Assembly: GCA_035946615.1 (NCBI GenBank)
Contig: DASYZB010000008.1
Location: forward strand, 1-40,272
DNA length: 40,272 bases
Direction: 5' to 3'
Source: Verrucomicrobiia bacterium
Lineage (GTDB): Bacteria > Verrucomicrobiota > Verrucomicrobiia > Limisphaerales > UBA8199
Below, one piece after another: positions 23,991-40,272 of this stretch (positions within the stretch are counted from its first letter, which is position 1; the number at the start of each line of letters is the position of its first letter). The position numbers were made by a program, and so were the translations under genes. The notes beneath the pieces are model-generated. The model was not told the DNA's origin. It worked only from the letters and a program-made list of their open reading frames with translations, and did no database searches.

Positions 23991-24272
23991 TCAGGCGCTC
24001 TCATAATGCCTTACATCCGCGTAAATTCCAGGTTTTCTATTGTTCCAATACTCATTTCCGAAAGCGGGCTCGGTGGAGGACAGTTGAGTCACTGCGTATT
24101 GCATCGGGGTGAGCTCTTTTTGCAACTCAGCCTGAGAAGGTTTCTGGAAATTTGTATTAACGAAAAAGCCGGGGGGCGCGTTGGTCGGCTGAGAACCGGC
24201 GCGCGAGTGACTGGTCAGCGCGAAGAGCGCGAGCAGCACCCCTGCCAATCGCAGAATGTATATCTGGCGCAT
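23991..24272 (-). pseudogene. Truncated exported methionine sulfoxide reductase B
   Basis: The 93-residue frame begins MRQIYILRLAGVLLALFAL with a signal peptide ending near SRAG. It then reads LQKELTPMQYAVTQLSSTEP followed by AFGNEYWNNRKPGIYADV, an unmistakable MsrB N-terminal half (family: L-T-x-x-Q-Y-x-V-T, then Y-W-x-x-x-x-x-G-I-Y). It stops soon after, at RHYESA. The catalytic half, with the G-T-G-W-P-S-F motif and the R-C-C/U/S-x-N segment, is missing and was not found in the other frames of the following 110 bases. So it is a 3'-truncated gene, or a short protein that reuses the N-terminal half. Confidence 0.7.
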
Positions 24273-24968
24273 GCCGAACAATAGCGCGGGTCTTTTGAAA
24301 AAGCTCCCCTGCGAGGAGCAGGTTTTGAGCAGGATTGAAAACGGGCTTGTAGTCAGAATCCTTACAACGCATTCCAGGGTTTCCTGACTGACAACCCGCA
24401 AGCCGCCCGCTAAATTAGAATTGCGAACCCGATGACGACGAACCGCCATTTGAGAACCGCCAGTGGGGCTGCAAATGAGTGATGCGCGGAAACGAAAGAA
24501 GTCGCGAGTGATACCCGGGGTTGAGTTGCGGGCAACAAGGAAGATTCCGGGTCAATCGAATAGATTTCTCTCGCTGAGGCCCACACGCAGGTCGTATAAA
24601 ATTGTTTTGATAGAGAGTATGCGCGGCAGTGACGCGGGCCAAATCGAGCGGTGGGTCGGAAGATTTTCCTCTTCCCTCTCTGCGGAGAAGAAGGGGATTT
24701 TATTTCTGCGCGCGGGCACAATCTGTTCTCCGAAAACCCCTCGCTCGCCGTGCCCTCTCTATTGGGGAGAGGGTACCGGCGGGCGGAATTCTCCCAGGTT
24801 GGTTCCCAAGAAGGGCGGCGGGAAGGGGGCGAATTTTTTTGGAGCGCTTGATTTTTTGCTTTTGTGTTTGACCCACAGTTGGAATTTGGATAACCGTCAC
24901 GGGCTGCCTGCAGACCCGAACGGGTATCGAGGCGGCGAGAACGTGTTGGCGGCAAGCCACAACAGCAC
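24273..24968. other. 696-base region upstream of the pilus operon, no gene recognised
   Basis: Several frames stay open, but none resembles a protein and they overlap each other in opposite directions. A hairpin CCCTCTC-7 bases-GAGAGGG lies at 24753-24773. TTGACC at 24868 has GATAAC 15 bases downstream, a weak candidate promoter for the operon. The length of the region before such a long operon suggests regulatory content. Confidence 0.5.
24753..24773. repeat. 7-bp-stem hairpin upstream of the pilus operon
   Basis: CCCTCTC (24753-24759), a 7-base loop, GAGAGGG (24767-24773). No U-run follows, so it is not a typical terminator. Confidence 0.5.
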
Positions 24969-26870
24969 ATGCTGAATACCAAATCATTTTTGGCGATCGA
25001 CTTCGGAGCGGGCAGCCTGAAGCTGGCTGAGTTCGAGATCAACGAAGCGGGCGGCTTGCGTTTGAAACAATACGGCCTCAAATCCCTGGGGGCCGAAGGG
25101 GCGCAGGAGACGGCGCGTGAAGCGGTGGTGCTCAAGGCGCTGCAGGAAATGCTGGCCGAGCGTTCGATCAAAGCCAAAATCGTCAACGTCTGCGCGCCCG
25201 GGTTTCATGTCTTTTCCAAATTCGTCAAACTCCCGCCGGTGGATGCGGGCAAGGTGACCCAGATCATCCAGTACGAGGCGCAGCAGAACGTGCCCTTCCC
25301 GCTGGAAGAGGTGGTGTGGGATTATCAGATTCTGGGCTCGACGCCCGGTGGCGAGCTGGAAGTGCTGCTAGTGGCCATCAAGGCCGACATCGTCGAGGGG
25401 CTGTTCCGGGTCTCCGAGGCTGCGGGCCTGCGCTTGCAATTGTGCGACGTCTCGCCGGCCGCCTTGTGCAATGCCTTCCGTTACAACTACGGCGAATTGG
25501 AAGACTGCACGGTGCTGCTGGACATCGGGGCTAAGACCAGCAACCTGCTCTTCTTCGAAAAGGGCAAGGTCTTTTCCCGCAGCATTAACCTGGGGGCCAA
25601 TTCGATTACGCAGGATTTCGCCAACGAATCCAAGAAGAAGTTCGATGTGGCCGAGAAGATCAAGATTGACGAGGGCTTTGTCAGCCTGGGGGGCGCTTAC
25701 GAAGAGCCTGAGAACCAGGACCAGGCGGCCATCTCGAAAATTGCGCGTCAATTCATGACACGGCTGCACATCCAGGTCAATCAGACGATGCAGTACTACA
25801 GGGGCCAGCAGGGCGGCTCGGCGCCAGCACGGCTTTTCCTGTCGGGCGGGGCCTCGATCATGCCCTACACGGCGCAGTTTTTTGCTGAAAAGCTCAATGT
25901 GCCGGTCGAGTATTTCAATCCGCTGCGGAACATTCAAATTGACCCCACCATCAACCTGGAAGACCTGGCGCGGGTGGCCCACTCGCTGGGCGAGGTGGTC
26001 GGGTTGGGATTGCGCAACCTGGCGCACTGCCCGGTCGAGCTCAACCTGATGCCCGAGAGCACGCTCAAGTGGCAAAGTTTCAACCAGAAAAAGCCGTATT
26101 TGATAGCGACGGTCTTCAGCATGGTGGCGGTTATCGCCGCTATTGGGCTGCTGTTCGGCACGCTGGCGAAGGCCAAGAACGACGCGCTGCAGGCGTTGGA
26201 AACGGAGATCGCGCCCGCCGAGGGCAAACAGCAAAAACTCGAACAGGAGTTGGGCGCTCTCAGGAAGCGACAGAACGAGGCCAATCAAATGGTTGAATGG
26301 ATGGACGACCGTTCGTACTGGCCCGAAGTGCTCACTCAGTTGCGCGGGGTTCTGATGAAGGTTGAGGCGGGCATGAAAAACCGGTACCAGGCCGACACCG
26401 GCATCTGGGTCGAGCAATTCATCACGGCCACCCCGCGGGCAGGCGAGGAGATGGCCGGGGGCGACAATTCCCCCGCTCCGATGTCCGACAGCGACGCCAT
26501 CGCCCGGATGAAGATCATGCAGCGGTATGGTTTGGGCCCCTACGCCCACCGGGGCGCGGCGGCGCCCACCCCCGTCACACCCGATACCACCACCGCCTCG
26601 GCCACTCCGGGGGTCGTCAAAAAGAAGGGCGACACCAATGACGTTTCCTCGATTACCATCACCTTCCGCGCGGTGAGCCTTGCCCCCATTTCGGCCGAGG
26701 CGAACAAGGAAATCTATTATGCCGTCCTGAATGAGCTTAGGAACAACCCCATTTTCGATCCGGACCCGACCTATACGCACGACAACGGACCGATTAGCGC
26801 AGACGACCAGGCGACCGGCACTTTCACCTTCCCGCTGATAGTTGGGCTCAGACGCCCGCTGCACCTCTAG
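24969..26870 (+). CDS. pilM: PilM-PilN fusion, type IV pilus / secretion platform
   Basis: A 633-residue protein. The first ~355 residues are PilM-type actin-like ATPase: FLAIDFGAGSLKLAEFE (phosphate 1), FSKFVKLPPVDAGKVTQII, EAQQNVPFPLEEVVWDYQIL (the PilM signature), TVLLDIGAKTSNLLFF (phosphate 2) and LFLSGGASIMP (adenosine). A membrane segment follows (YLIATVFSMVAVIAAIGLLF, about 375-400), then a coiled coil and the motif DRSYWPEVLTQL as in PilN, and a C-terminal ferredoxin-like part. PilM and PilN are separate in most bacteria and bind each other through the PilN N-terminus. The layout fits Akkermansia Amuc_1101. No Shine-Dalgarno site is seen. It is the first gene of the operon; the next ATG is one base after the stop. 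Confidence 0.85.
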   Translation: MLNTKSFLAIDFGAGSLKLAEFEINEAGGLRLKQYGLKSLGAEGAQETAREAVVLKALQEMLAERSIKAKIVNVCAPGFHVFSKFVKLPPVDAGKVTQIIQYEAQQNVPFPLEEVVWDYQILGSTPGGELEVLLVAIKADIVEGLFRVSEAAGLRLQLCDVSPAALCNAFRYNYGELEDCTVLLDIGAKTSNLLFFEKGKVFSRSINLGANSITQDFANESKKKFDVAEKIKIDEGFVSLGGAYEEPENQDQAAISKIARQFMTRLHIQVNQTMQYYRGQQGGSAPARLFLSGGASIMPYTAQFFAEKLNVPVEYFNPLRNIQIDPTINLEDLARVAHSLGEVVGLGLRNLAHCPVELNLMPESTLKWQSFNQKKPYLIATVFSMVAVIAAIGLLFGTLAKAKNDALQALETEIAPAEGKQQKLEQELGALRKRQNEANQMVEWMDDRSYWPEVLTQLRGVLMKVEAGMKNRYQADTGIWVEQFITATPRAGEEMAGGDNSPAPMSDSDAIARMKIMQRYGLGPYAHRGAAAPTPVTPDTTTASATPGVVKKKGDTNDVSSITITFRAVSLAPISAEANKEIYYAVLNELRNNPIFDPDPTYTHDNGPISADDQATGTFTFPLIVGLRRPLHL

Positions 26871-26871
26871 T

Positions 26872-28011
26872 ATGTCCTGGATCAAGCGCAACCTCTATTT
26901 TTTCATCGGGAGCATCCTGGCGGTGGGGTTGATGGGCCTGGCCGGCTGGTATCTCTATTCGAAATGGGACGAGAACAACAAGATCGTTCAGAGCCTGAAC
27001 GATGATTATGAAAAACTCCGCCGTCTCAATACCCAAAAGCCGCACCCTGGCAATGACAAGATCAATAATATCCAGACGGCCAAGGACCAGCAAAAAGAGC
27101 TGATGGATATTATTTCCAAGGCGCGGGGCTATTTCCAGCGCATCCCTCCGACTCCGAATGAGGCCAATATCAATGACCACGATTTTACAGTCGCCCTCAG
27201 CCTGGCCATTAACGAGCTGCAAAAGGATGCCACCAACGCCAGCGTCATTTTGCCGCCGGATTATAATTTTTCTTTCCAAGCGGAGAAATCGAAAGTGTCG
27301 TTTGTGGCCGGGGGGCTGAGCCCGCTGGCGGTTCAGCTCGGGGAGATCAAAACTATTTGCGGAGTGCTCTTCGCCGCCAAGGTCAATTCGCTCGACAACA
27401 TCCGGCGCGAGCGGGTTTCGAGCGACGATTCCAGCGGTCCGCAGAGCGATTACCTGTATGATAAGTCAGCCACCAATGACATGGCGGTGCTCTCGCCCTA
27501 TGAATTGACCTTTAAATGCTTCAGCGCCGAGCTGGCGCATGTGCTGGCTGGATTTGCCAGTTCCTCCAACGCGCTGATCGTTAAAACGATCAATGTCGAG
27601 CGAGCGCCGGCACAGGCTGAATCCGAACAGCCCGGAGGTCCAGTCGCCCAGTACATCCAGCGTTATGCCGCGCCGGCTTACGATGCAATGTCAGAACAAC
27701 AGAGGATCGCCCAGCGCTATGGGATATCGGCATCCGGGCCGGCCAACCGGTATGGCGGCGGCGGCCCCAGCCTTGCAGACCGTTACGGCGGTGGCGGAGG
27801 CGCCAGCCTGGGTGGTATTCCCTATCGCCCGCTGCAGGCCACAGAAGCACCACCGCCGGTTTATCAGCCGCCGCCGGTTTATGCTCCCACAGGGGCAGCC
27901 CCGCAGGCGGGAGCGCCGGGGGGCAAAGGCGGTTTGCCCACCGTTCTGGATGAAAAAGAGCTCAAGGTAACGCTCGCACTGGACGTGATGAAACTTCTGC
28001 CTTCGAAATAA
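26872..28011 (+). CDS. Amuc_1100-like type IV pilus-associated protein
   Basis: A 379-residue protein starting MSWIKRN with a single N-terminal membrane segment (FFIGSILAVGLMGLAGWYLY), a coiled-coil stretch (residues about 35-85), and a folded periplasmic part. It has the layout of Akkermansia Amuc_1100: SPYELTFKCFSAELAHVLAG and LIVKTINVERAPAQ match the place of that protein's second ferredoxin-like domain, and KELKVTLALDVMKL its last strand. Gene order relative to pilM and the secretin is also the same. A PilO-like role in the alignment complex is inferred. Between about 290 and 360 there is a Tyr/Gly/Pro-rich linker (RYGGGGPSLADRYGGGGG). The start is set by the ATG one base after pilM. Confidence 0.72.
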   Translation: MSWIKRNLYFFIGSILAVGLMGLAGWYLYSKWDENNKIVQSLNDDYEKLRRLNTQKPHPGNDKINNIQTAKDQQKELMDIISKARGYFQRIPPTPNEANINDHDFTVALSLAINELQKDATNASVILPPDYNFSFQAEKSKVSFVAGGLSPLAVQLGEIKTICGVLFAAKVNSLDNIRRERVSSDDSSGPQSDYLYDKSATNDMAVLSPYELTFKCFSAELAHVLAGFASSSNALIVKTINVERAPAQAESEQPGGPVAQYIQRYAAPAYDAMSEQQRIAQRYGISASGPANRYGGGGPSLADRYGGGGGASLGGIPYRPLQATEAPPPVYQPPPVYAPTGAAPQAGAPGGKGGLPTVLDEKELKVTLALDVMKLLPSK

Positions 28012-28012
28012 G

Positions 28013-28858
28013 ATGGATTTTCTCAAGAAACATTTTGAAAAAATCCTGCTTGGGGTGGTGTTATTGGGCCTGGCAGTTGCGGTGGCCTTTCTTCCGTTTG
28101 TTATCGCCAACGAAAAGCAGCGCCTCGAGGACATGAAGACCAGCGTGCTGCATCCCAAAGTCGAGCCGCTGACCAACCTGGACCTAAGCATGGCGCAAGC
28201 AGCCCTCAAGAGTGTCGCCATGCCGGTCAGTCTCGACCTGGGCCCGCCCAATCGCCTTTTTAATCCCATGCCATGGCAAAAAACGGCGGATGGCCACCTG
28301 GTCCCCCAGGACAAAGTAGGGCCGAGCGCGCTGACGATTGTCAGCATCACGCCGCTGTTTATGAAGCTGACGCTGGACTCGATTACGCCGGCGGACCCCG
28401 GAGGCAGCCCCCAGTACATCATTGGAATTGAAAAGCCGGCGGCCTACGGCGCGCGGAAGATCAAGACCCAGGACTATTGCACCACCAATCCGCCTACCCA
28501 GAACAAGACCTTCGAGATGCTTTCAGTCAAGGGCAAGCCGGATGACCCGCAGGTGATTGTAAAGCTCAAAGACACAGGGGAAACGGCGGCCATCAGCACC
28601 AACAAACCCTTTGAGCGCATTGAGGGCTACATGGCCGATTTGCGGTATGAACCTGAAAAGAAACATTGGGAAAACTGCCGCCCCAATGTGCGGACCTCGC
28701 CGCCGCTGGCCTTTAACGGGGAAGAGTACAACGTCGTTGCCATCAACCCCCGCGAGGTCGTGCTCGCCGCCAAGTCAAACGGGAAGAAATGGACCATCGC
28801 GGCCAACCCGACCAACGCCGCGCCCGTGACCGCTGCTTCAGCCAGCGCCTCACCCTAA
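28013..28858 (+). CDS. Amuc_1099-like pilus operon protein
   Basis: A 281-residue protein with one N-terminal membrane segment (ILLGVVLLGLAVAVAFLPFV), then a mostly periplasmic body with strands (SALTIVSITPLFMKLTLDSI, EEYNVVAINPREVVLAAKSN). The last part, from about residue 225, resembles a small beta-domain of the type seen in PilP or secretin-binding pilotins. The ATG is one base after the upstream stop and the gene lies between the Amuc_1100-like gene and the secretin, the place of Amuc_1099 in Akkermansia. A job linking the inner-membrane complex to the secretin is inferred from position. Confidence 0.6.
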   Translation: MDFLKKHFEKILLGVVLLGLAVAVAFLPFVIANEKQRLEDMKTSVLHPKVEPLTNLDLSMAQAALKSVAMPVSLDLGPPNRLFNPMPWQKTADGHLVPQDKVGPSALTIVSITPLFMKLTLDSITPADPGGSPQYIIGIEKPAAYGARKIKTQDYCTTNPPTQNKTFEMLSVKGKPDDPQVIVKLKDTGETAAISTNKPFERIEGYMADLRYEPEKKHWENCRPNVRTSPPLAFNGEEYNVVAINPREVVLAAKSNGKKWTIAANPTNAAPVTAASASASP

Positions 28859-28908
28859 AACCGATGTAAGATTTATCCTCCTATTTACTGAACCTAACTG
28901 TAAACCCC

Positions 28909-31665
28909 ATGATGAAATCAGCCTCCCTCCCCATTGGTCTTGCTTTGTTCTTCGCCGCCGCGGCGGTTGTCCACGCCCAGGCGCCCGCTGAAGAAAGCGC
29001 CGTCAATGAAGCGGTCATGCGCCAGGCCGGGCGCATCACCCTGCGCCAGAAACTGGCCGCTGCCAGCGAAGCACAGGCCCGCCACGACCTGGTCACCGCC
29101 GCCAAGCTCTATGACGATGCCTGGCTGCTGGTGCAGAAAATCGGCGCCAACGTCGAGGCCGAGGCCGCCGATGCCCGCACGGGCCTGGCCACCGTCCGTC
29201 TCGAGTTGGCCCGAGAGGCCCAACGCCGCGGCGACCTTAAAGAGGCCGCTGTGCAGGTCAATGACGTGCTCCGCGTGGACCCCTCGAACGCCGACGCCCT
29301 GAGCTTCAAACGCAACAACCAAAAGCTCCTGGCCGAGCAGGCGGGCCGGATTCCAGACGACGATACCAAGAGCCAGGTCCCGATTATCATGAAGGAGAAA
29401 GTCAGCGCCGGCACCCTTGTCCAGGATGGCAAGCTGCTGTTTGAGATGGGCAAAATGGATGAGGCGCGCAAGAAGTTCGAAGAAGCCACCAAAATCGATC
29501 CGCAAAATCAGGCTGCTTATTATTATCTGAACCTGATCAACGAAGCGCGGTTCAAGGAGGCGCTCAATAAGCGGGATATTGCCTCCCGCACCGCCATCGT
29601 GGATATCGAGAATGCCTGGTACACGCCCCCCAATCGCGACAAGCTGCCGGTGCCCAACTTGTATGCCCGCACAAACCTCATTCATACCAGCCCCAGCCGC
29701 CAAGTCATTTATGCCAAACTCGACCGCATCCACCTGGATACCGTCACTTATGACGGGTTGCCGCTGACGGAAGTGGTGCGGTTGCTGAGCGATGAAGCGC
29801 TGAGGCGCGACCCGGAAAAGCGTGGGATTAACTTTATCGTCAATCAGAACGTCGATGTCGGCACCAGCGGCGGGGCAGGTGTGGCCGCCCCGGGGGCTAT
29901 CGATCCAACCACCGGCTTGCCCGTGGCTGCCGCGGCCGCGCCGCCGGAGTCAGTGGATATGAGCCAGATTTCGATTAAGATCGTTCCGGCGCTGCACGAT
30001 GTGAGCCTGGGGCAGGTCCTCGATGCGATTGAGAAAGTGGCGGATCGCCCAATTAAATACTCGATCGAGGATTATGCGGTGGTCTTCTCGTTGAAGACGC
30101 GCGATACGGCCGCGCCGCTTTACGTTCGGTTCATCAAAGTGGACCCGAACACCTTTCAGCAAGGCCTCGAGAACGTTGTCGGGTTTGACTGGGGTTCGAT
30201 TGCCCAAGCCAGCAACGGCGGCGCAGGCGGAGCCGGCGGCATTGGCGGTGGCGGCGGCATTGGCGGGGGTATCGGGGGTGGTGGTGGCGGCATTGGCGGC
30301 GGCACTGGCGGCGGCCTGCTCACGGTGCCACGCGTCAATATCGCGCCTGGCGGAGGAGGAGGTATTGGGGGCGGGGGCGGAGTAGGGGGGGCCGGCGGTC
30401 TCTCCTCAGTGACGCGCACGAATAACATGGCCTTCGTCCAAGCCATGGTGCGCCAGTTCTTCCTGACGATGGGCATAGACCTCAATCCGCCTAAGAGCAT
30501 TTTCTTCAATGACCGCGAAGGCACGCTGGTTGTGCGGGCCACCTTGCAGGATTTGGATACGATCGAGACCGCCGTCCAGGCCCTCGACATCGCCCCGCCA
30601 CAGGTCAACATCAAAACCAAGTTCGTCGAGGTTGCCCAGAACGACAGCCGGGCATTGGGCTTCGATTGGTTTTTGGGCAACACCTTAATGAATAACGGGG
30701 CGCTCGGCTTCCAGGGCGGCTCGGCCCCGGCCTTTAACGGCGCCCCCACAACCGCCAACCCCTTGGGCTCTTTCCCCGCCAGTCCGAATCCGGCGCCGAA
30801 TGACGTGCCCCAACTGCTCACCTCGGGCCTTCGCAACACGGTCGGCTCGCAAAACGCCTCCATCCCGGCTGTCGGCACCTTGAGCGGCATCCTGACGGAC
30901 CCGCAGTTCCGAGTTGTGATTCGCGCCCTCGAACAGCGCGATGGGTCTGATTTGCTCAGTGAATCCTCGGTGACGACCCTGAGCGGCCGCCAGACCGAGG
31001 TTATGGTGGTTGATTTGAGGACGATTGTCATTGGGACATCGCTGGGCCAGACGGCTGGTGGCGGCTTCGGCGGCGGCGTCGGCGGCATCGGGGCCGGGGC
31101 TGGCGCGATTGGCGGGGCAGGAGTGATTGGTTCGCAGGTCAGCTATCCCACCGAGACGCTGCCGTTCGGCCCGACCCTGGACGTCATCCCTTACGTATCG
31201 GCAGACGGCTTTACCATCCAGATGACCATCATCCCGACGCTGGCCGAGTTTATTGGTTATGACGATCCCGGCGCGTTTGTGCCGCAGGTCCAATCGGTAT
31301 CCAGCGGCGGCGCCGGCAGCGGCGTGGCTCTCCCGTTGACCGCCACGCTCCCTTTGCCCCGCTTCCGCATCCGGCAGGTGACCACTTCGGCCATTGTCTG
31401 GGACGGCCAGACGGTGGTATTGGGCGGCTTGATTGCTGAAAATGTGACCAAGCTAAAAGACAAGGTGCCTGTTCTAGGCGACCTGCCGCTGGTGGGCCGG
31501 ATGTTCCGCAGCGAATCCACGTCGAGCCAAAAGAAGAACCTGATGATTTTCGTCACACCCACTATTATCGACCCGGCGGGCAACCGCGCGCATTCTGAAG
31601 AAGAAATGCCTTTTGCTCAAACCGCCATCCCGGTCCAAAAGCCTATTGTCCCCCTGCCGCAGTAA
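28909..31665 (+). CDS. pilQ: PilQ/GspD-type outer-membrane secretin
   Basis: A 918-residue protein with a signal peptide (IGLALFFAAAAVVHAQ), TPR-like helices (residues about 40-220, with KLLFEMGKMDEARKKFEEAT), N-domains (VSLGQVLDAIEKVADRPIKY; GTLVVRATLQDLDTIETAVQ), a long Gly-rich insertion (about 436-498), and a C-terminal secretin domain with QVNIKTKFVEVAQNDSRALG and the gate signature VPVLGDLPLVGRMFRS near 855, closing LMIFVTPTII. The channel would let a pilus or secreted protein cross the outer membrane. The TPR part before the N-domains, instead of AMIN domains, is like the verrucomicrobial secretins (Amuc_1098). Met 28909 and 28912 are both possible starts. Confidence 0.92.
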   Translation: MMKSASLPIGLALFFAAAAVVHAQAPAEESAVNEAVMRQAGRITLRQKLAAASEAQARHDLVTAAKLYDDAWLLVQKIGANVEAEAADARTGLATVRLELAREAQRRGDLKEAAVQVNDVLRVDPSNADALSFKRNNQKLLAEQAGRIPDDDTKSQVPIIMKEKVSAGTLVQDGKLLFEMGKMDEARKKFEEATKIDPQNQAAYYYLNLINEARFKEALNKRDIASRTAIVDIENAWYTPPNRDKLPVPNLYARTNLIHTSPSRQVIYAKLDRIHLDTVTYDGLPLTEVVRLLSDEALRRDPEKRGINFIVNQNVDVGTSGGAGVAAPGAIDPTTGLPVAAAAAPPESVDMSQISIKIVPALHDVSLGQVLDAIEKVADRPIKYSIEDYAVVFSLKTRDTAAPLYVRFIKVDPNTFQQGLENVVGFDWGSIAQASNGGAGGAGGIGGGGGIGGGIGGGGGGIGGGTGGGLLTVPRVNIAPGGGGGIGGGGGVGGAGGLSSVTRTNNMAFVQAMVRQFFLTMGIDLNPPKSIFFNDREGTLVVRATLQDLDTIETAVQALDIAPPQVNIKTKFVEVAQNDSRALGFDWFLGNTLMNNGALGFQGGSAPAFNGAPTTANPLGSFPASPNPAPNDVPQLLTSGLRNTVGSQNASIPAVGTLSGILTDPQFRVVIRALEQRDGSDLLSESSVTTLSGRQTEVMVVDLRTIVIGTSLGQTAGGGFGGGVGGIGAGAGAIGGAGVIGSQVSYPTETLPFGPTLDVIPYVSADGFTIQMTIIPTLAEFIGYDDPGAFVPQVQSVSSGGAGSGVALPLTATLPLPRFRIRQVTTSAIVWDGQTVVLGGLIAENVTKLKDKVPVLGDLPLVGRMFRSESTSSQKKNLMIFVTPTIIDPAGNRAHSEEEMPFAQTAIPVQKPIVPLPQ
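30214..30402 (+). repeat. Gly-rich coding repeat inside the secretin
   Basis: About 63 codons are mostly GGC/GGT/GGG, in units like GGIGGG, interrupted once by LLTVPRVNIAPG. A second, shorter GG-I/V-GG stretch lies near 31066-31130. Loops in secretins are often variable; here the length would be prone to slippage in steps of three bases. Confidence 0.8.
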
Positions 31666-31686
31666 CGCAGAGAAAGATGTCTAGTT

Positions 31687-33636
31687 ATGTCATTGCGCTT
31701 TGTTCCTAAGGCCCTCCTGTGCCTCTCATTAGGTATAGGCATTTGTGGCAGCGTTTTTGCCCAGGGCACCTATGCGACCAACGGCGGCGAATATGCCATC
31801 GCGGGCGCTTTGCCTGGCGACCAGGTCCATCCGGCAGTTGCCCTGACCACCAACGGCGGGTTCCTGGTCTGGCAAGACAATATTACTGACCCCACTGGGC
31901 TGGGGATTAGCGCGTTGCGGCTGGACAGCAGTTTCTCGGGGGTCCTCTCTCCGTTTCGCGTGAATGCGGGCCAGGTCGGCGACCAGGAACGTCCGCAGGC
32001 CTCTTTGCTGTCCAATGGCGGGGCGGCCTTTGTATGGCAGGGAGGCAATCTGGGGTTTCAACACATTTACGCGCGGTTTCTTTCAACCAGCAACACCTGG
32101 CTCAGTTCGAGTGACATCCTGGTTAATTCGATCACCAACAAGGGCCAGCTTAATCCTGCCCTGGCCACCTTAGCCAATGGGAACGTGGTGGTTGTGTATG
32201 GCAGCATGAACCAGCAAGACACCAATAGCATGCAGGATGTCTATGGACAGATGCTCTCACCCACCGGCCAGAAGATTGGCGGTGAGTTCCTGGTCAATCT
32301 CTTTACTGCCTTTAACCAGCGCACACCCTCGGTGGCCGCCCTCAGCGGCGGCGGCTTCGTCGTGGTCTGGGTCTCTGAACAGGAACGCAGCGGGCCGGTG
32401 GATAGCCCAAGCAGCGGCGCGGACTATTCCCCCACGAACCTTCCCAGCGTCGATATCTACGCCCGCATTTACTCCGCCAACGGCACTCCCACTACCGGTG
32501 AAATCCTGGTCAATACCGATTCCTATGTTTGCGCTAATCCACGGGTAGCTGCCGGCACTGACGGCGGGTTCATGGTGACCTGGGGTCAGAAAAACACCCT
32601 GATCCAGGCCTATAGCTGGGATATTTTCGCCCGGCCATTTTCTGCGACAGGGGCCGGCGGCCTCGTTACCACAGTCAATACCTACCTGATCGGCGACCAG
32701 TATATCCCCCAAATCAGCGCCTTGGGCAGCGATTACCTTATCGTCTGGACCAGCCTGGGCCAGGACGGTTCACGCGAAGGGGTTTTTGGACAGTTCCTCA
32801 ACAACACATCAGCCAAGATCGGCGGTGAATTCCAGGTCAATACAACCGCCATTGCCCAGCAGATGCACCCGGCGGTCGCTTCTGACGGGAATGGGCGGTT
32901 TCTGGCGGTCTGGACCAGCTATATCGGCGGGGTCGGCAGCTTCGACCTCTACGCGCAGCGTTACATCAATAATGCCGAACCGCTGCTGCCGATGAACGCG
33001 CCCTTTGTTTATGCGCCCTTTACTTTCAGCAATGGCGTCTATCAGCCCCAACTCCAGGTGAGCTGGCCGTTCGAGCCGGGGCTGCCCATCGATCATTATG
33101 AGGTCTATGTGGACGGCGCGGTGTCACCCGCCGTTTCGGTTGCGACCAATATGTGGACGCTCGCCGGCCTGGGTACCAGCAGCACCCATAAATTCCAGGT
33201 CGCCTATGTTGTCGCGGATGGACGCCGCTCGCCCCTCTCGCCGGCAACCAGCGGCTCGACCTGGAGCGGCTATAGCTGGGGCGGCATCCCCTTCGAGTGG
33301 ATGTCCACTTATTACGGCGGGTCAGTCAATGTATTTAACTGGCCGTCGCCCAGCGCCCCGTTGAGCCCGGGGGGCCCTACGCTGGTGCAAGTCTTTCTGA
33401 GCGGCGGCAACCCCACCAACCCGAGCACGTGGTTGCACGTGGGCCTGGCGCCATCGCCACAGGGCTATTTCCTGACCTGGAACCCCCAGCCGGGCATGAT
33501 CTACCAGGTCCAGAGTTCAGGTGACCTTCTCAACTGGACCAATGTGAGCAATCCCAGGTTCGCGGCCGGCGCCGCCGACTCGCTCTTTGTGGGCGCCAAC
33601 AACGTCGCCTATTACCGCATCCTGCGCTTGCGCTGA
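31687..33636 (+). CDS. Exported beta-propeller-like protein with FN3-type end
   Basis: A 649-residue protein with a signal peptide (ALLCLSLGIGICGSVFAQ). Residues about 30-430 hold about seven blade-like repeats of the form Q-x-x-P-x-V/A-A, x-x-x-G-G-F-x-V-x-W, Y-A-R/Q, e.g. GDQVHPAVALTTNGGFLVWQ and RTPSVAALSGGGFVVVWVSE, which fits a beta-propeller. It continues with a fibronectin-III-like region (LQVSWPFEPGLPIDHYEVYV) and ends AYYRILRLR, a C-terminal strand common in exported verrucomicrobial proteins. No enzyme motif is visible. The gene starts 21 bases after the secretin gene and is likely co-transcribed. A surface or pilus-linked role is inferred. Confidence 0.7.
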   Translation: MSLRFVPKALLCLSLGIGICGSVFAQGTYATNGGEYAIAGALPGDQVHPAVALTTNGGFLVWQDNITDPTGLGISALRLDSSFSGVLSPFRVNAGQVGDQERPQASLLSNGGAAFVWQGGNLGFQHIYARFLSTSNTWLSSSDILVNSITNKGQLNPALATLANGNVVVVYGSMNQQDTNSMQDVYGQMLSPTGQKIGGEFLVNLFTAFNQRTPSVAALSGGGFVVVWVSEQERSGPVDSPSSGADYSPTNLPSVDIYARIYSANGTPTTGEILVNTDSYVCANPRVAAGTDGGFMVTWGQKNTLIQAYSWDIFARPFSATGAGGLVTTVNTYLIGDQYIPQISALGSDYLIVWTSLGQDGSREGVFGQFLNNTSAKIGGEFQVNTTAIAQQMHPAVASDGNGRFLAVWTSYIGGVGSFDLYAQRYINNAEPLLPMNAPFVYAPFTFSNGVYQPQLQVSWPFEPGLPIDHYEVYVDGAVSPAVSVATNMWTLAGLGTSSTHKFQVAYVVADGRRSPLSPATSGSTWSGYSWGGIPFEWMSTYYGGSVNVFNWPSPSAPLSPGGPTLVQVFLSGGNPTNPSTWLHVGLAPSPQGYFLTWNPQPGMIYQVQSSGDLLNWTNVSNPRFAAGAADSLFVGANNVAYYRILRLR

Positions 33637-33641
33637 AGGCC

Positions 33642-36005
33642 ATGACCCCATTTTCTATGTTGCGATTATTGAAGCAAATCACCTGCCTGGCCCTTCTGGC
33701 AGCCGGCGCCCAGCTCTCGTTCGGCTTCGCGCTGCTGGGACCTATTAATGAACCTTACCAGACTCAGGAAATCGGATACAATCTGCCCGGTGATATCGGC
33801 GCCCCGAAGAATCTTGGCGAGGAGTACCGCCGCAATATGCCGGTCCTTTATTATACCTGTGATGCCAACTTCCTGGATTATTTCGGGTCCAACGGCCTGG
33901 CCGAGGTGGATAAAGCATTTAACGTTTTCAATAGCCTGACAAACGTTTCGAGCTACAGCAGTGATCTGTCTGAATTCCCTCTTGAAACGAAGCGAACAAA
34001 CTATAAGGCGGAGTCCTTGTACATGTTCGATCTCAAGTCCTGGGTCATGTCGCTGCTGATCGAATCGATGGGTCTGGCTGAGCCGATCCGGTTTACATGG
34101 ACATTGCACGACCGCTTCCTAATCCCTGGGGGCACCTGCCCCTTCGGTGAAGAATATATCATAATCAAGCGCAATTTCGATTCCGCCTTCGGCACCTCAG
34201 TCGATCAACTCAAACCAAGCAGCTATGTCAATAATATTCTCTATTCCTACCAAATCGCCGAGTACTGCACTGCCCCAGCCAACTTTCCATACATCGCCGT
34301 GACCTTTCCGTTTTCGGTGGACCCGGATGCGAACGCCTTTACGCCCGTGGCGTCAACTTTCGGTTTCGGCAATAGCTTCCTGTTCTCTCCTTACGGGCTG
34401 TTCTACACGGGAATAACGCGCGACGACGTCGGCGGATTGCGTTATCTGCTCCGCGCTAACAACATGAATGTCGAGAATGCGGGCCCCGGCACATTGACCC
34501 TCGAGACCAATTACGTTCCGCAGTTGCTGGTCAGTTCGAACTTGAGCCTCTTGGCGGCGCAAGCCATCACTAACGACGCGCCAACGCTCCAGGGCCTCTA
34601 CCCGAACCTGGTCATCCTTTCGACGAGCAATTTCTTCTCGAACATCTTTACCACCAACATCACCGCTTATTTTACCAATTTCCCCTGGGACCCCGCCGGC
34701 ACCCCTGCGCACCTGGCCTTTCTTACCAACTCGACCCCTTCCGTAGCGACGCGCTATATCCATACCTTCGGCAACGTCTTGCGCCTGTTGCCGACCGCCA
34801 ACGGGTGGGTGGCTAAACCGCTGTTGAATGCACCCACCAGGCCGAACAGCCCGGAATGGGTGACTGTCGAGACCGACAGCGTGGGGGCTTCCAACATGGC
34901 CTGGGGGCCGGTCGGCAGCACGTTTATCACCACGAACGTTTTCGATCAGAGCTACATCACCAACGGGGTGGTGGGAGACTATGTAATCCTGCCGACCAAC
35001 CTCTGCGATATTGGCATTGTTAGCTCGCAACTGACCAATGTCGTGTCCAGCACCAATGTCGTTTTTGTTGCCACCAATACCTTTGTGAGCACCAACGCCC
35101 TGGGCTTCACCAATGCGGGGACGCTCCTCTCCTACACCCAAAACCTGATCACTTATTTCACGAATCACACGTTTGTCATATATCCGGTGGTGTGCGATCC
35201 CACTAACGTTTCGCTGCGGCAGGGCATTGAGAAAATCACGTTTATCCGCCGAGACTATGATTCACTCCTGACGCGATTCTTCTATCCGATAACGAACGAC
35301 TACACGATCAACACGGTCACCAATAACGCCATCATTCCCTTGCGGGTCCGGCGGGTGGTCACACAGCCCGATTTCCTGCTGACCGCCCAGGATACCGTGG
35401 CGGGGCCGGACGCCCTGCCGACTGTTCCTGCTGTGCGGCGCGATATTTTGTATAATACAAATAGCGAATATCTTGGGTTAGCCGGGCCTGGCACCATTGA
35501 ACCGGCAACAGGGGCTCCAGCGGGAACCACCTTTATCTTCAATAAAGTCGGTCCGATGTTCATCAACTTCGGGCTCGTCAATACGAATGCTTATCTGACG
35601 GAAGTGGAACAGATTCCCATATATATTTGGGGTTCCTTTGATGCTTCGACCAATACGCCAGTGATATATCCTAATGACGTAAGTGTCAGCGACCTCGAGA
35701 ACCAGGTCTTGATCCAGGTCACTCCTTCGGCCTTGCCGCCGGGAACCTTGGGAACCGCCTATTTGGGCCAGTTGCAAACGGTGGGTTATACCCCCAATTG
35801 GCAGGCTCCTTACTCGTGGTCTTTGGCGCCGGGTTCGCCGGGGTTGCCGCCGGGCCTGTTCATTACCAACCCTGGAGACGGTTCGGGGGTCATCAGCGGC
35901 ACACCAACAACCGTTGGATTCTACGACTTTATCATTCGCGTGACCGATGCCGTTGGCCGCAACCTGGACCGGAGTTTCAGCATTAATATTACTCCCGATC
36001 CCTAG
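33642..36005 (+). CDS. Large exported Asn/Thr-rich protein with matrixin-like N-terminus
   Basis: A 787-residue protein with a signal peptide (LKQITCLALLAAGAQLSFG). Residues about 65-160 recall matrixin-type metalloproteases in layout (VDKAFNVFNSLTNVSSYSSD, then DLKSWVMSLLIESMGLAEPI), but the zinc motif HExxH is absent, so it is either a non-enzymatic relative or unrelated. The middle is rich in TN pairs (STNVVFVATNTFVSTN). The end is a putative Ig/cadherin-like domain (PPGLFITNPGDGSGVISGTP followed by TTVGFYDFIIRVTD). The gene starts 5 bases after the preceding stop. ATG 33657 is an alternative start. Confidence 0.65.
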   Translation: MTPFSMLRLLKQITCLALLAAGAQLSFGFALLGPINEPYQTQEIGYNLPGDIGAPKNLGEEYRRNMPVLYYTCDANFLDYFGSNGLAEVDKAFNVFNSLTNVSSYSSDLSEFPLETKRTNYKAESLYMFDLKSWVMSLLIESMGLAEPIRFTWTLHDRFLIPGGTCPFGEEYIIIKRNFDSAFGTSVDQLKPSSYVNNILYSYQIAEYCTAPANFPYIAVTFPFSVDPDANAFTPVASTFGFGNSFLFSPYGLFYTGITRDDVGGLRYLLRANNMNVENAGPGTLTLETNYVPQLLVSSNLSLLAAQAITNDAPTLQGLYPNLVILSTSNFFSNIFTTNITAYFTNFPWDPAGTPAHLAFLTNSTPSVATRYIHTFGNVLRLLPTANGWVAKPLLNAPTRPNSPEWVTVETDSVGASNMAWGPVGSTFITTNVFDQSYITNGVVGDYVILPTNLCDIGIVSSQLTNVVSSTNVVFVATNTFVSTNALGFTNAGTLLSYTQNLITYFTNHTFVIYPVVCDPTNVSLRQGIEKITFIRRDYDSLLTRFFYPITNDYTINTVTNNAIIPLRVRRVVTQPDFLLTAQDTVAGPDALPTVPAVRRDILYNTNSEYLGLAGPGTIEPATGAPAGTTFIFNKVGPMFINFGLVNTNAYLTEVEQIPIYIWGSFDASTNTPVIYPNDVSVSDLENQVLIQVTPSALPPGTLGTAYLGQLQTVGYTPNWQAPYSWSLAPGSPGLPPGLFITNPGDGSGVISGTPTTVGFYDFIIRVTDAVGRNLDRSFSINITPDP

Positions 36006-36037
36006 CGGACTGTAGAGCAACCGAATTCAACAATTTT

Positions 36038-38938
36038 ATGAAGCAGAAGTTTTTAGCCGGTGTAACGGTGCTGGGGCTTGTGTCCGGCGCCATCGGCCAA
36101 CCCTCGCAGATTTGGGAGAACTGGGGTCAGGTCTCCACCGCTCCCCAAATTGATGCCTTGACATTTATTAACCATCAGGGCGCCACGTTCGTCATCGACA
36201 CCAGCGACTTGTTCGAGACCGCCGACACCCTCAATTATACCAACCAAGGCTTCATGAGCGGCTTCCCGGGATTCAATCTGCAGACATTCCCAACCGCGGT
36301 GGGGCAGCCGACAATGGCATCGAGTTTTGCCAACCTGGCCGGGGGTATTAATAACGGCGTCATCGATGTCAACGGCACCTTCTCCTTCATCCTGGCACCG
36401 GGTCTGCTTTTTGGAAATCTGACTGGCAATTCGAGGTTCCTCATCAGGGCGACGAACATCGTCAATAACGGCACGATTAATATGAGTGCCAGCAGCCTTC
36501 TGAAAATGGATGGGCAGAACATCGACTTGAGCCGCGGCGAGATGTCGATGGTCAATCCAACCACCTCGATTGTTTTTGGCACCAATGTCCTTTTTGGACG
36601 CACATTCAATGCGGGCATCCTGGACGGCTATTGGGCTGCGGACACCGCTACCAATGCCATGGTCCCCTCCGCTCTGCTCAATGACATCACCCCCTTTCAC
36701 ACCGTCACCAATCGACAATACCTCGTCTTTAATACCATCGTCTTCGCGCCGAACGCGGTCGTGTATGTCAATGATTCGGGGACGGTCAATTCAAACCGTT
36801 TTGTTCAGGTGGTGTTTCTGAGCAATCTGGACCCGAGTTTTGTAAATTCGGTTTATTTCACCCCTGCAGAAATCGCGGTGCAATGGCAGTGGGCAAGCCC
36901 CGTGTGGCCGACCCACTCTCTTCAGACCAATTTTATGTACCTCACTGACAATTTCGGCGAGGTGACCAATATCGGCGTGGTTCTTAATGGGGATATCAAT
37001 CCCCAGTCAGCCTATCCAATCCCGACCTACAGACCGATGAACTATAATTTCGTCACAGGCACGCCTTACAACACGAACCTGGCGCCCGCGGTGGCCGGCT
37101 TGCTGCCAAACCTCTTTGGCAATACCTCCCTTACCAACCAATACGCCGCGTACGAAGGTATCTTTATCCCAGGAACCGAACTGGCAACAGACGTCGCCGG
37201 TGGGAATGCGACTAACATGGCTGGCCGGATAGAAATCACCGCGGATAACACCCTGAAATTAAACAGCAGCCGCATCTCGTCGCTCAATTACCTGCTCCTC
37301 CGGGCCACAAATCATTTCCGTGGCAGCCCCAACGCCATCATTTCGAGCCCAACCACCGACCTTTACCTGCGCACGACTAATGGGGTTCTGAATGTGACGA
37401 ATATCCTGGTCCCCTTCCTCACGCATCCCTCGGGGACTTGCGACCTATGGAGCGGGCGCTGGACCAACGTGGTGAATAGCATTACCAATGGCTATCATGT
37501 GCTGTTCGTTGATAGCCTGCTGCGTCCGACTTCCCAAGCTCTCGTTCAAACTCTTAACCTGGCGGTGACGAATTTCTCGGGCGCGCCCAACAACCTGGTC
37601 ATCAATGATGTCTTGAACGTGACCACGAACCTGTTGCTCAATGCCGAACGCGTCACATTGGCCACCAATGACCCCAGCGCGTTCAATCCCAACGGCGCCT
37701 TGAACATCCTGAACGATAATATCCTATGGTCCACGGCCACACCTGGCCTGCAGTATCTGACCAACTGGGGTGATATTATGACATTCAACGCGGCTTACTT
37801 CGGCGGCTCGCGCACCCAACCGCCTTACAACACCAATACGGTCGATATCCCTTACCAGGCCTTTGTGAATCACGGGGGCGTTACGAACCAAGGAGTCTTG
37901 ATCTGGGCCAATTACTTCGAGAACAGCGGGGTTTTCGAGGATTTCCAGGGATCAATCGTCCTGCAACAATCTCAAACCGCGGTGCTCTCCGGCGGCGCGT
38001 TCGACGCGTTTAATGGCCAGGTCAGCATTAACTCGGACAACTTGAGCGTGAGCAACTACTCGATCTTTGCCGGCGGCAGCATCGATCTGACCGTGAGCGG
38101 CGCCATGACCGACGGCGGCCCATTCAATGGCAACCAGTGGTTCGCCGGCAACGGGTTCAGCCTCCATCAAAAACCGGCGACCGGCGACTTGCTTGGCACG
38201 ATTGTCTTCAGTTCCGCCCCGGATTTTGCCGAGACCCTCAATTATTGGGCGGGTGAAGACCGCGGGGCGTCGCCCTCGGGTTACCTCAACAACGGGGCAG
38301 TGGGCCAGTTGATGCTCTTTGGAGGGACCAACAGCGCCTTCCATTTCATTGCGACGGGCGCCCAGAACGCGTTGTATGTCGATGTGCTGACCCTGAGCGG
38401 CTCGGCCATCAACCGGGACGCTGCCGGCAACTTCCCCAACCTCGATATCGACCCGAACATGACGGTCTATTTCGCCGATGCCCTTGTCAATGGCCAGTCC
38501 ATTGCCGAGAAGCTCAACGGCAAGAACGGCGGGCGGCTGGTTTGGGTTTCCAGCTATGCCGGGGCTTATTCTTCGACCAATATCACCTATCCCAGCGGCA
38601 TTACCTACACGTTCAACCGCGCGCTGGTGCAGAGCTGCACTATTGATTCCAACGGCAACGGCATCCCCAACTGCATCGACCCGGCCCCCATCCCGGTGCC
38701 GGGCCAGCTTAACCTCAGCGTGATGGCGACCAATTCGCCGCGCGCCAATGTGCTGACTTGGCAGACCCTGGCCAACTCGACCAATTACGTCTTCTACAAG
38801 ACCTCGTTGGCGGGCGCCAATTGGCAACTGCTCACCAATTTTGTTTTTGGCCCGATTGCCGGGAAGGCGACGGTTCTGGACGCCACGGCCGCGTCGAGCC
38901 GCTATTACCGCGTGCGCATCGAGGGCAAGCAACCTTAG
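36038..38938 (+). CDS. Large exported beta-rich repeat protein
   Basis: A 966-residue protein with a signal peptide (FLAGVTVLGLVSGAIGQ). It is made of short strands with frequent N-x-G turns (IDVNGTFSFILAPG, NNGTINMSASSLLKMDGQNI, GGSIDLTVSGAMTDGG), like a beta-helix or autotransporter-type filament. Near residue 870 a DSNGNGIPNCIDP motif fits a thrombospondin type 3 calcium-binding loop. The C-terminus, SSRYYRVRIEGKQP, has the same Y-Y-R strand as the gene at 31687. The body is low in charge and rich in Asn and Thr. No catalytic motif is seen. It lies 32 bases after the preceding gene on the same strand. Surface adhesion or cargo of the secretin machine is a guess. Confidence 0.65.
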   Translation: MKQKFLAGVTVLGLVSGAIGQPSQIWENWGQVSTAPQIDALTFINHQGATFVIDTSDLFETADTLNYTNQGFMSGFPGFNLQTFPTAVGQPTMASSFANLAGGINNGVIDVNGTFSFILAPGLLFGNLTGNSRFLIRATNIVNNGTINMSASSLLKMDGQNIDLSRGEMSMVNPTTSIVFGTNVLFGRTFNAGILDGYWAADTATNAMVPSALLNDITPFHTVTNRQYLVFNTIVFAPNAVVYVNDSGTVNSNRFVQVVFLSNLDPSFVNSVYFTPAEIAVQWQWASPVWPTHSLQTNFMYLTDNFGEVTNIGVVLNGDINPQSAYPIPTYRPMNYNFVTGTPYNTNLAPAVAGLLPNLFGNTSLTNQYAAYEGIFIPGTELATDVAGGNATNMAGRIEITADNTLKLNSSRISSLNYLLLRATNHFRGSPNAIISSPTTDLYLRTTNGVLNVTNILVPFLTHPSGTCDLWSGRWTNVVNSITNGYHVLFVDSLLRPTSQALVQTLNLAVTNFSGAPNNLVINDVLNVTTNLLLNAERVTLATNDPSAFNPNGALNILNDNILWSTATPGLQYLTNWGDIMTFNAAYFGGSRTQPPYNTNTVDIPYQAFVNHGGVTNQGVLIWANYFENSGVFEDFQGSIVLQQSQTAVLSGGAFDAFNGQVSINSDNLSVSNYSIFAGGSIDLTVSGAMTDGGPFNGNQWFAGNGFSLHQKPATGDLLGTIVFSSAPDFAETLNYWAGEDRGASPSGYLNNGAVGQLMLFGGTNSAFHFIATGAQNALYVDVLTLSGSAINRDAAGNFPNLDIDPNMTVYFADALVNGQSIAEKLNGKNGGRLVWVSSYAGAYSSTNITYPSGITYTFNRALVQSCTIDSNGNGIPNCIDPAPIPVPGQLNLSVMATNSPRANVLTWQTLANSTNYVFYKTSLAGANWQLLTNFVFGPIAGKATVLDATAASSRYYRVRIEGKQP

Positions 38939-39011
38939 GGACAGCGGGGCAAATGAACTTTAGTCGCGCGCAGCGAGCAGTACCGCTGTGCGCTCAGTCG
39001 TGAAAGTGATT

Positions 39012-40272
39012 ATGCAAAGATTCGCAAGTCAGATTGTAAAATGTGCCCTCCGCCCCGGCGCGGTAAAGTGGGGCTGTCTTCTTTCGGCGGGGGTCCTGGC
39101 CTCGAGCGCCTTGGCCCAGCCCGCCAACGATAATTTTGGCAGCGCCCAGGTCATCAGCGGCGATTTCGGCACCGTAACCGGCAGCAACGTGGGCGCCACC
39201 GCCGAGCCGGGCGAACCCAACCACGCCGGGCTCAAGCCCAATGCCTCGATTTGGTATGTCTGGACCGCCAACAACACCGGGCCGGTCGAGTTCGACACAT
39301 TCAACAGCACCTGTGACACCGTGCTGGCGGTTTATGTCGGCCCCACGGTTGGCAACGCCACGGTTGGCAACCTGAACCAGGTTGTCGCCAATGACGACAT
39401 CAACACCACCAACCCGGAAAACGCGAATAGACACTTCCACTATAACGACCCCTATTTGGATAATCCCTATTTAGGGCCAAGCGGTGTGAAGTTCAACGCC
39501 GTGCGAGGCACTACCTATTACATCGCGGTGGACGGCTATACCAAGAACAACAGCAGCTTGCCGGGCCAAGGCGCCATTACCCTGTCCTGGGCGTATAACC
39601 CATCGGGGGTCTTCAGGGTCAGCCACCCCTTTTATTTCTGCACCGAAGCCGAATCAGATAAACCGGTTGACGGCTCTTACGCCGAGAGCGCCCAAGGCGC
39701 ACGAATCACGGTCACTCGCGTATTCGGATCGTCCGGCAAGGCCATCGTCTCGTTTGATCTTCGCGACGGCAGTGCGCGTGCCGGCGTAGATTATAAACGA
39801 CCTGACAAAACGACGCTCCTTTTCGATGACCATGAAATGAGCAAGAGTTTTGTCATCCCTATCATTGACGATGGCAGCGTGGCGGTTAGAAATCCCGCCC
39901 GAATAGGCGTTCCGAACAATAACCGTACCTTTTCGATAATCCTGACCAATGTAGTCCTGGATGCGCAGGAAGACCCCACGGTTTTGCCTGCACCGCGGTT
40001 CGACAATAACCACATCAATTCCATCGTCGAGATATTCGATATGGATATACCCATTTTATTGGACCCTACCAGCCCTACAGTGGGTATTACCAACGGCGTA
40101 GTAAACTTCGAGCGAAGCGTTTATCGCGTGCGCGAGGGCGTAGGTATGGCCCGCATCCTGGTCTATCGTGGTTTCCCTGGAACTTTTGGGCTCCCAAACG
40201 CTCAGGGCACAGAGATTCATTACGAAATCGACACCACATGGTTCCCTGAAGCCTTCACCGACGACAATCAGT
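39012..40272 (+). CDS. Exported PPC/Calx-beta-domain protein, cut by the window end
   Basis: The frame is open from ATG 39012 to the right edge, 420 codons without stop. It has a signal peptide (WGCLLSAGVLASSALAQ), then a domain starting PANDNFGSAQVISG with NASIWYVWTANNTGPVEFDT and CDTVLAVYVG, the pre-peptidase C-terminal-like type common in Verrucomicrobiota. From residue about 215 Calx-beta-like repeats follow: GARITVTRVFGSSGKAIVSF, AGVDYKRPDKTTLLFDD, and a second starting VNFERSVYRVREGVG. Such domains are usual in large adhesins. The real length is unknown. A GTG at 39000 is an alternative start. It continues the pilus operon after a 73-base gap. Confidence 0.75.
   Translation, partial: MQRFASQIVKCALRPGAVKWGCLLSAGVLASSALAQPANDNFGSAQVISGDFGTVTGSNVGATAEPGEPNHAGLKPNASIWYVWTANNTGPVEFDTFNSTCDTVLAVYVGPTVGNATVGNLNQVVANDDINTTNPENANRHFHYNDPYLDNPYLGPSGVKFNAVRGTTYYIAVDGYTKNNSSLPGQGAITLSWAYNPSGVFRVSHPFYFCTEAESDKPVDGSYAESAQGARITVTRVFGSSGKAIVSFDLRDGSARAGVDYKRPDKTTLLFDDHEMSKSFVIPIIDDGSVAVRNPARIGVPNNNRTFSIILTNVVLDAQEDPTVLPAPRFDNNHINSIVEIFDMDIPILLDPTSPTVGITNGVVNFERSVYRVREGVGMARILVYRGFPGTFGLPNAQGTEIHYEIDTTWFPEAFTDDNQ

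Follow-up and report, generated by a model that had tools for sequence, protein, structure and literature searches.

A type IV pilus secretin operon followed by large exported proteins is conserved across Limisphaerales

The genes described here form a genuine unit that is conserved across Limisphaerales, an order of Verrucomicrobiota, and in which genes of a pilus alignment complex and its secretin run on into genes for large exported proteins. We read it as an order-specific Verrucomicrobiota type IV pilus alignment/secretin operon with an added extracellular module, whose outer parts would work with the pilus gate, and we give this reading a probability of roughly 45%. The fixed order of pilus gate genes and exported proteins suggests a surface apparatus, not previously described, that is tied to the pilus machine. 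The MUL2 locus of Akkermansia, tied to mucin foraging, figures among the few genetically studied attachment and uptake loci in Verrucomicrobiota. Limisphaerales are known chiefly from metagenomes of soil and water, and they seem to combine the MUL2 core with different outer parts. If the link between these parts and the pilus operon holds, the locus would offer a testable parts list for polymer attachment and consumption by mostly uncultured bacteria, and an example of a pilus machine that has been given a new exterior.

Gene layout and the pilus core

The window, meaning the whole 40,272-base stretch of DNA analysed, is the start of contig C8 (109,698 bases) in a 5.6 Mb genome (G000). An ORF re-check found eight plus-strand reading frames where the original prediction had placed them, and the contig beyond the window completes the series:

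24969..26870, +, PilM, probably a PilM-PilN fusion, Amuc_1101-like (TIGR01175, PF11104)
26872..28011 from an ATG start (the automatic ORF list had an earlier TTG), +, Amuc_1100-like, PilO-like by position (NF038287, below cut-off)
28013..28858, +, Amuc_1099-like, putatively PilP/GspC-like by position and topology (family conserved in the order)
28909..31665, +, secretin of PilQ type, Amuc_1098-like, with a TPR region (PF00263)
31687..33636, +, E1, exported beta-propeller with an FN3-like domain and a generic C-terminal module (structure model)
33642..36005, +, E2, exported, with a conserved N-terminal domain and a cadherin-like C-terminal domain (sequence and structure comparison)
36038..38938, +, E3, exported, probably beta-helical (putative), with a TSP3-like loop near the C terminus (conserved family)
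38988 (GTG) or 39012 (ATG)..40272, +, E4, start only in the window, full ORF to 48434 (contig reading)
48452-55279, beyond the window, E5, S53 pro-kumamolisin of 2275 aa, with coaE next

From PilM to E5 the intergenic gaps are 1, 1, 50, 21, 5, 32, 49 and 17 bases with the GTG start for E4. The spacings first reported downstream of the secretin (21, 5, 32 and 73 bases) stand, the last being 73 with the ATG and 49 with the GTG. All four exported proteins reported there are present, and signal peptides can be read on these giant proteins, but they are not the whole set, as five (E1-E5) precede coaE. Promoter-like and terminator-like sites across 24.4-40.3 kb show no excess over shuffle expectation. 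Together with the short gaps, this would fit a single operon and allows co-transcription. On the opposite strand, the ORF at 23991-24449 (-) has a signal-peptide-like start followed by about 40 MsrB-like residues (LTPMQYAVTQ..TEPAFGNEYW) and then a stop; judged by eye, it looks like a truncated or decaying gene.

Two core proteins are recognised outright. PilM matches TIGR01175 at 137.7 bits (cut-off 133) as well as PF11104, and the secretin matches PF00263 at 97.7 bits (cut-off 27.5), as expected of a type IVa alignment complex with a PilQ-type secretin. A type II secretion system does not fit: the GspD model TIGR02517 reaches 148.6 bits against a cut-off of 351, and a scan of the locus found no ATPase, GspF or pseudopilin gene. 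The PilM domain spans residues 10-350 and is followed by a hydrophobic stretch and a coiled coil, a topology suggesting that PilN is probably fused to it. Candidates for PilN, PilO and PilP have the expected places and sizes, and gene order and topology point to these roles, while family and PDB profiles give no match: neither Pfam nor PDB profiles link the Amuc_1100-like protein to PilO, and the Amuc_1099-like protein, assigned by place and alignment and conserved as a family within the order, matches no family or PDB profile. The locus thus resembles a type IVa PilMNOPQ operon in its PilM and secretin, and in having PilB, PilT and PilC elsewhere in the genome. It differs in that PilN, PilO and PilP are unrecognisable by sequence and in its appended exported proteins.

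Conservation across Limisphaerales

Gene order was read by a six-frame HMM scan in two sets of loci. The first comprises 36 loci fetched around the best Amuc_1098-model match in 35 genomes of the order. The second, an independent set of 80 loci found through E2 in the genome collection, partly overlaps the first, and its record titles name Limisphaerales, Verrucomicrobia subdivision 3, Pedosphaera, unresolved Verrucomicrobia and, in a few cases, Akkermansia muciniphila. Three MAG records with the last title (L154, L172 and L176) nevertheless carry a Limisphaerales-type operon with E1-E2, and their gene content suggests that they are probably mislabelled.

The Amuc_1098 model finds a match in 58 of 58 relatives (E <= 0.001), and a single order prevails throughout: PilM, Amuc_1100-like, Amuc_1099-like, secretin, an optional exonuclease, E1, E2, E3, an optional slot, CoaE. 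E1-E3 are present in every one of the 29 secretin-seeded loci that extend 8 kb downstream, and E1 and the secretin in every one of the 58 E2-seeded loci that extend 4.5 kb upstream. Opposite-strand genes are absent from the judged loci of either set, no judgeable locus has the block of E genes (E block) away from the pilus operon, and adjacency preserves the order in 24 families, which goes beyond chance. The adjacency of exported genes and secretin, on which the original prediction had rested its own refutation, is therefore conserved in relatives. The set of four proteins is not order-wide, however; three core proteins and a variable slot take its place. E1 occurs in 161 of 196 Limisphaerales genomes, usually as a single copy, whereas none of 194 sampled genomes of the phylum outside the order has a full-length E1, and only the C-terminal module or partial propellers turn up there. 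In one relative (G294, contig C562, 8703-13029) there are two tandem E2-like copies, one apparently split across frames.

Adjacency alone is no proof of function, since the same synteny is kept by two genes, the exonuclease and coaE, for which no working link to the pilus is plausible. The exonuclease was first considered as a new component, being a gene of about 310 aa between the secretin and E1 in other families, and was set aside when sequence inspection read it as a PolA-type 5'-3' exonuclease; it occupies that position in 46 of 103 loci, across many families. A passive arrangement is thus conceivable, in which the E block was inserted once into the exonuclease-coaE interval in the order's ancestor and serves some other surface function by other export routes. 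The equally stable synteny of exonuclease and coaE, and the E block's place between them in many families, agree with this. So does the one clean exception, a genome (G045, locus L066) that has lost the E block and kept secretin, exonuclease and CoaE, with E1 and E2 not found elsewhere in it; in the other genomes that lack E1, frequent contig breaks or low completeness keep the absence from being firm. We nonetheless regard the passive arrangement as unlikely, because the window's family has lost the exonuclease and yet holds its E block 21 bases from the secretin, because the block never leaves the operon in judgeable loci, and because its presence coincides with an apparent loss of Amuc_1102. 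The intervening exonuclease and the G045 locus still count against our pilus-linked reading, as do the other secretin loci of the genome, considered below.

The exported proteins and the slot behind them

E1, E2 and E3 represent three families without known counterparts along most of the sequence, and no enzymes are recognised among them; PDB sequence profiles give only partial FN3, cadherin-like or dockerin-like matches. The propeller first read in E1 is confirmed by its structure model (pLDDT 90.5), which superposes on the CylK propeller with Z 41.7 and 2.8 A over 365 residues. The model also resembles integrin alpha chains and the lectin CV39L (Z about 28-30), and the fold type is common among ligand- and sugar-binding propellers. 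The C-terminal module of E1, ending in Tyr/Phe-Tyr-Arg, was tried as an export signal and rejected as generic: it stands at 10 other places in this genome, is widespread in the phylum, and is missing from many E1 orthologues, which match through the propeller only.

The N-terminal domain of E2 is strongly conserved, carries FG..G and TRDD.GGLR motifs and fits no known family. Among E2 proteins of the window's family the C-terminal domain is cadherin-like, and it dominates the matches of a structure search with the whole model (Foldseek/VIA). An earlier likening of E2 to matrixins fails, as the HExxHxxGxxH site is absent, HExxH occurs in 0 of 95 E2 sequences and an M10 match in 0 of 66 members. 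E3 matches no Pfam family, though it is conserved in the order, and the TSP3-like loop predicted for it is visible near the C terminus.

Between E3 and CoaE lies the variable slot. Of 44 loci, 29 have less than 500 bases there and 15 have more. In the window's genome it begins with E4 (3148 aa), which carries the Calx-beta domain expected of the fourth exported protein together with DUF5122 propeller and DUF11 domains. E5 combines a pro-kumamolisin domain (PF09286, 87.6 bits), S53 motifs, P-domains and DUF11; the activation domain, EVSLD at 325 and GTSVAAP at 515 (E..LD / GTS..xP) mark it as a predicted sedolisin/kumamolisin (S53). Among 21 slot ORFs scanned from the loci, nine have an S8 subtilase domain and four an M36 fungalysin domain. 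A tail of about 600 aa is common to both kinds and 37-47% identical between head types, so that S8 and M36 peptidase heads have been exchanged on one tail. With the S53 protein E5 in the window's family, the slot has held three peptidase types.

A pilus machine with new outer parts

Motor and alignment operons are usually separate in type IVa pilus systems. The original prediction saw no motor genes at the locus and proposed a dedicated secretin machine. This is unsupported, because the same genome encodes PilB, PilT and PilC elsewhere. T2SSE and T2SSF genes are present away from the locus. On contig C73 stand a PilB-like gene, PilT, PilB and PilC, with 58, 72, 62 and 59% identity to a cluster from another order, where the motor genes adjoin the same pilM-secretin-exonuclease operon (L185, L188 and L189). 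Prepilin-like N-termini, by pattern match only, lie beside the C73 cluster, so that the motor genes and candidate prepilins of a type IVa system are in the genome. Three further secretin genes, on contigs C30, C55 and C103 (L008, L009 and L010), each lie about 12 kb or less from a T2SSE-type ATPase, and these loci could handle exported proteins.

A functional link between the exported proteins and the pilus operon is plausible, and the proteins may be cargo or partners of this secretin. Under our pilus-linked reading, the PilB/PilT/PilC motor would drive a filament that works through this secretin, and the module added behind it would consist of a core (the E1 propeller, E2 and E3) plus a facultative slot in which giant surface proteins, often peptidases, are encoded. 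E1-E3 would act beyond the outer membrane in concert with the pilus gate, binding polymers or particles as adhesive or polymer-holding elements, and a slot protease, where present, might cut the captured (glyco)protein.

Pilus cargo of the TcpF type has an N-terminal peptide that is bound by a minor pilin. A cargo model, which goes back to the original prediction, would here make E1-E5 substrates exported by way of this secretin, in the manner of TcpF. Their position in the same operon, their giant size and signal peptides, and the peptidases of the variable slot would all suit secreted cargo, and TcpF is exported through the toxin-coregulated pilus encoded by its own operon (PMC9565799). The likeness to that operon is one of arrangement, homology not being claimed: both are pilus operons that also encode exported protein, but TcpF is soluble, whereas here there are several much larger proteins and no pilin in the locus. 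We consider cargo an unlikely explanation, since no common export signal was found, the one candidate module of E1 being generic and often missing, and since the genome has other secretin systems. That E1-E3 instead build a structural sheath or surface layer, enclosing either the secretin or the entire cell, rather than a capture or foraging device, is in keeping with their beta-rich make-up without recognised enzymes and the cadherin-like domain of E2, but no surface-layer family matches and a peptidase slot is ill-suited to a purely structural role, and we think this very improbable.

Our pilus-linked reading parallels the role proposed for Akkermansia MUL2 (Amuc_1099-1102), whose secretin is Amuc_1098. 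In Akkermansiaceae the MUL2 core is reported to serve pilus-like attachment to, and uptake of, mucin or fucoidan (PMC13174399, citing Davey et al. 2023), and its proteins are reported as abundant in the cell envelope (PMC5332112). Core genes and their order are the same in both systems (PMC13174399, PMC5332112), the Amuc_1101-1100-1099-1098 succession of the original prediction holding at the locus, and a published synteny figure legend also places a dephospho-CoA kinase downstream in Akkermansia. Unlike MUL2, the window has no recognisable Amuc_1102, its proteins fall below the equivalog cut-offs (NF045709 for Amuc_1101 on PilM, 481 bits against 650; NF038287 for Amuc_1100, 82 against 180; NF042912 for Amuc_1098 on the secretin, 343 against 750), and Limisphaerales have three to five exported proteins between secretin and coaE. 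Because Amuc_1102 was not found upstream of PilM, we place the locus outside MUL2 and treat it only as a variant of the operon type that the two share.

Other orders of the class usually have an Amuc_1102-like gene upstream of PilM and lack E1-E3, often with the exonuclease and/or CoaE 3' of the secretin. An Amuc_1102-like profile found nothing in 52 genomes of the window's order, this one included, and matched in 12 of 14 control genomes from other orders, several of which were not used in building it. The order is without a recognisable MUL2A (Amuc_1102) and has the E block instead, a correlation that is suggestive only, since for the order as a whole each counts as one event. E1-E3 might perhaps take over the outer functions given to Amuc_1102 in Akkermansia. 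A bolder version, in which Limisphaerales rebuilt the pilus gate as their own foraging or attachment apparatus, with an extracellular E1-E3 complex at the secretin replacing Amuc_1102 and the slot loaded with exchangeable giant proteases, is possible, though we hold it to be doubtful.

The operons of other orders vary in further ways, given here in operon orientation. In L184 (8830-9372) and L194 (9548-10084) a single prepilin-like ORF lies downstream of the secretin, where the window has none, and in L182 (5646-10696) and L183 (5323-10363) tandem secretin genes end the PilM operon. In L196 (from 7352) and L197 (8341-12417) the secretin is followed by giant same-strand ORFs of 1358-1856 aa, which give no match to E1-E3 and may represent a separate instance of this arrangement.
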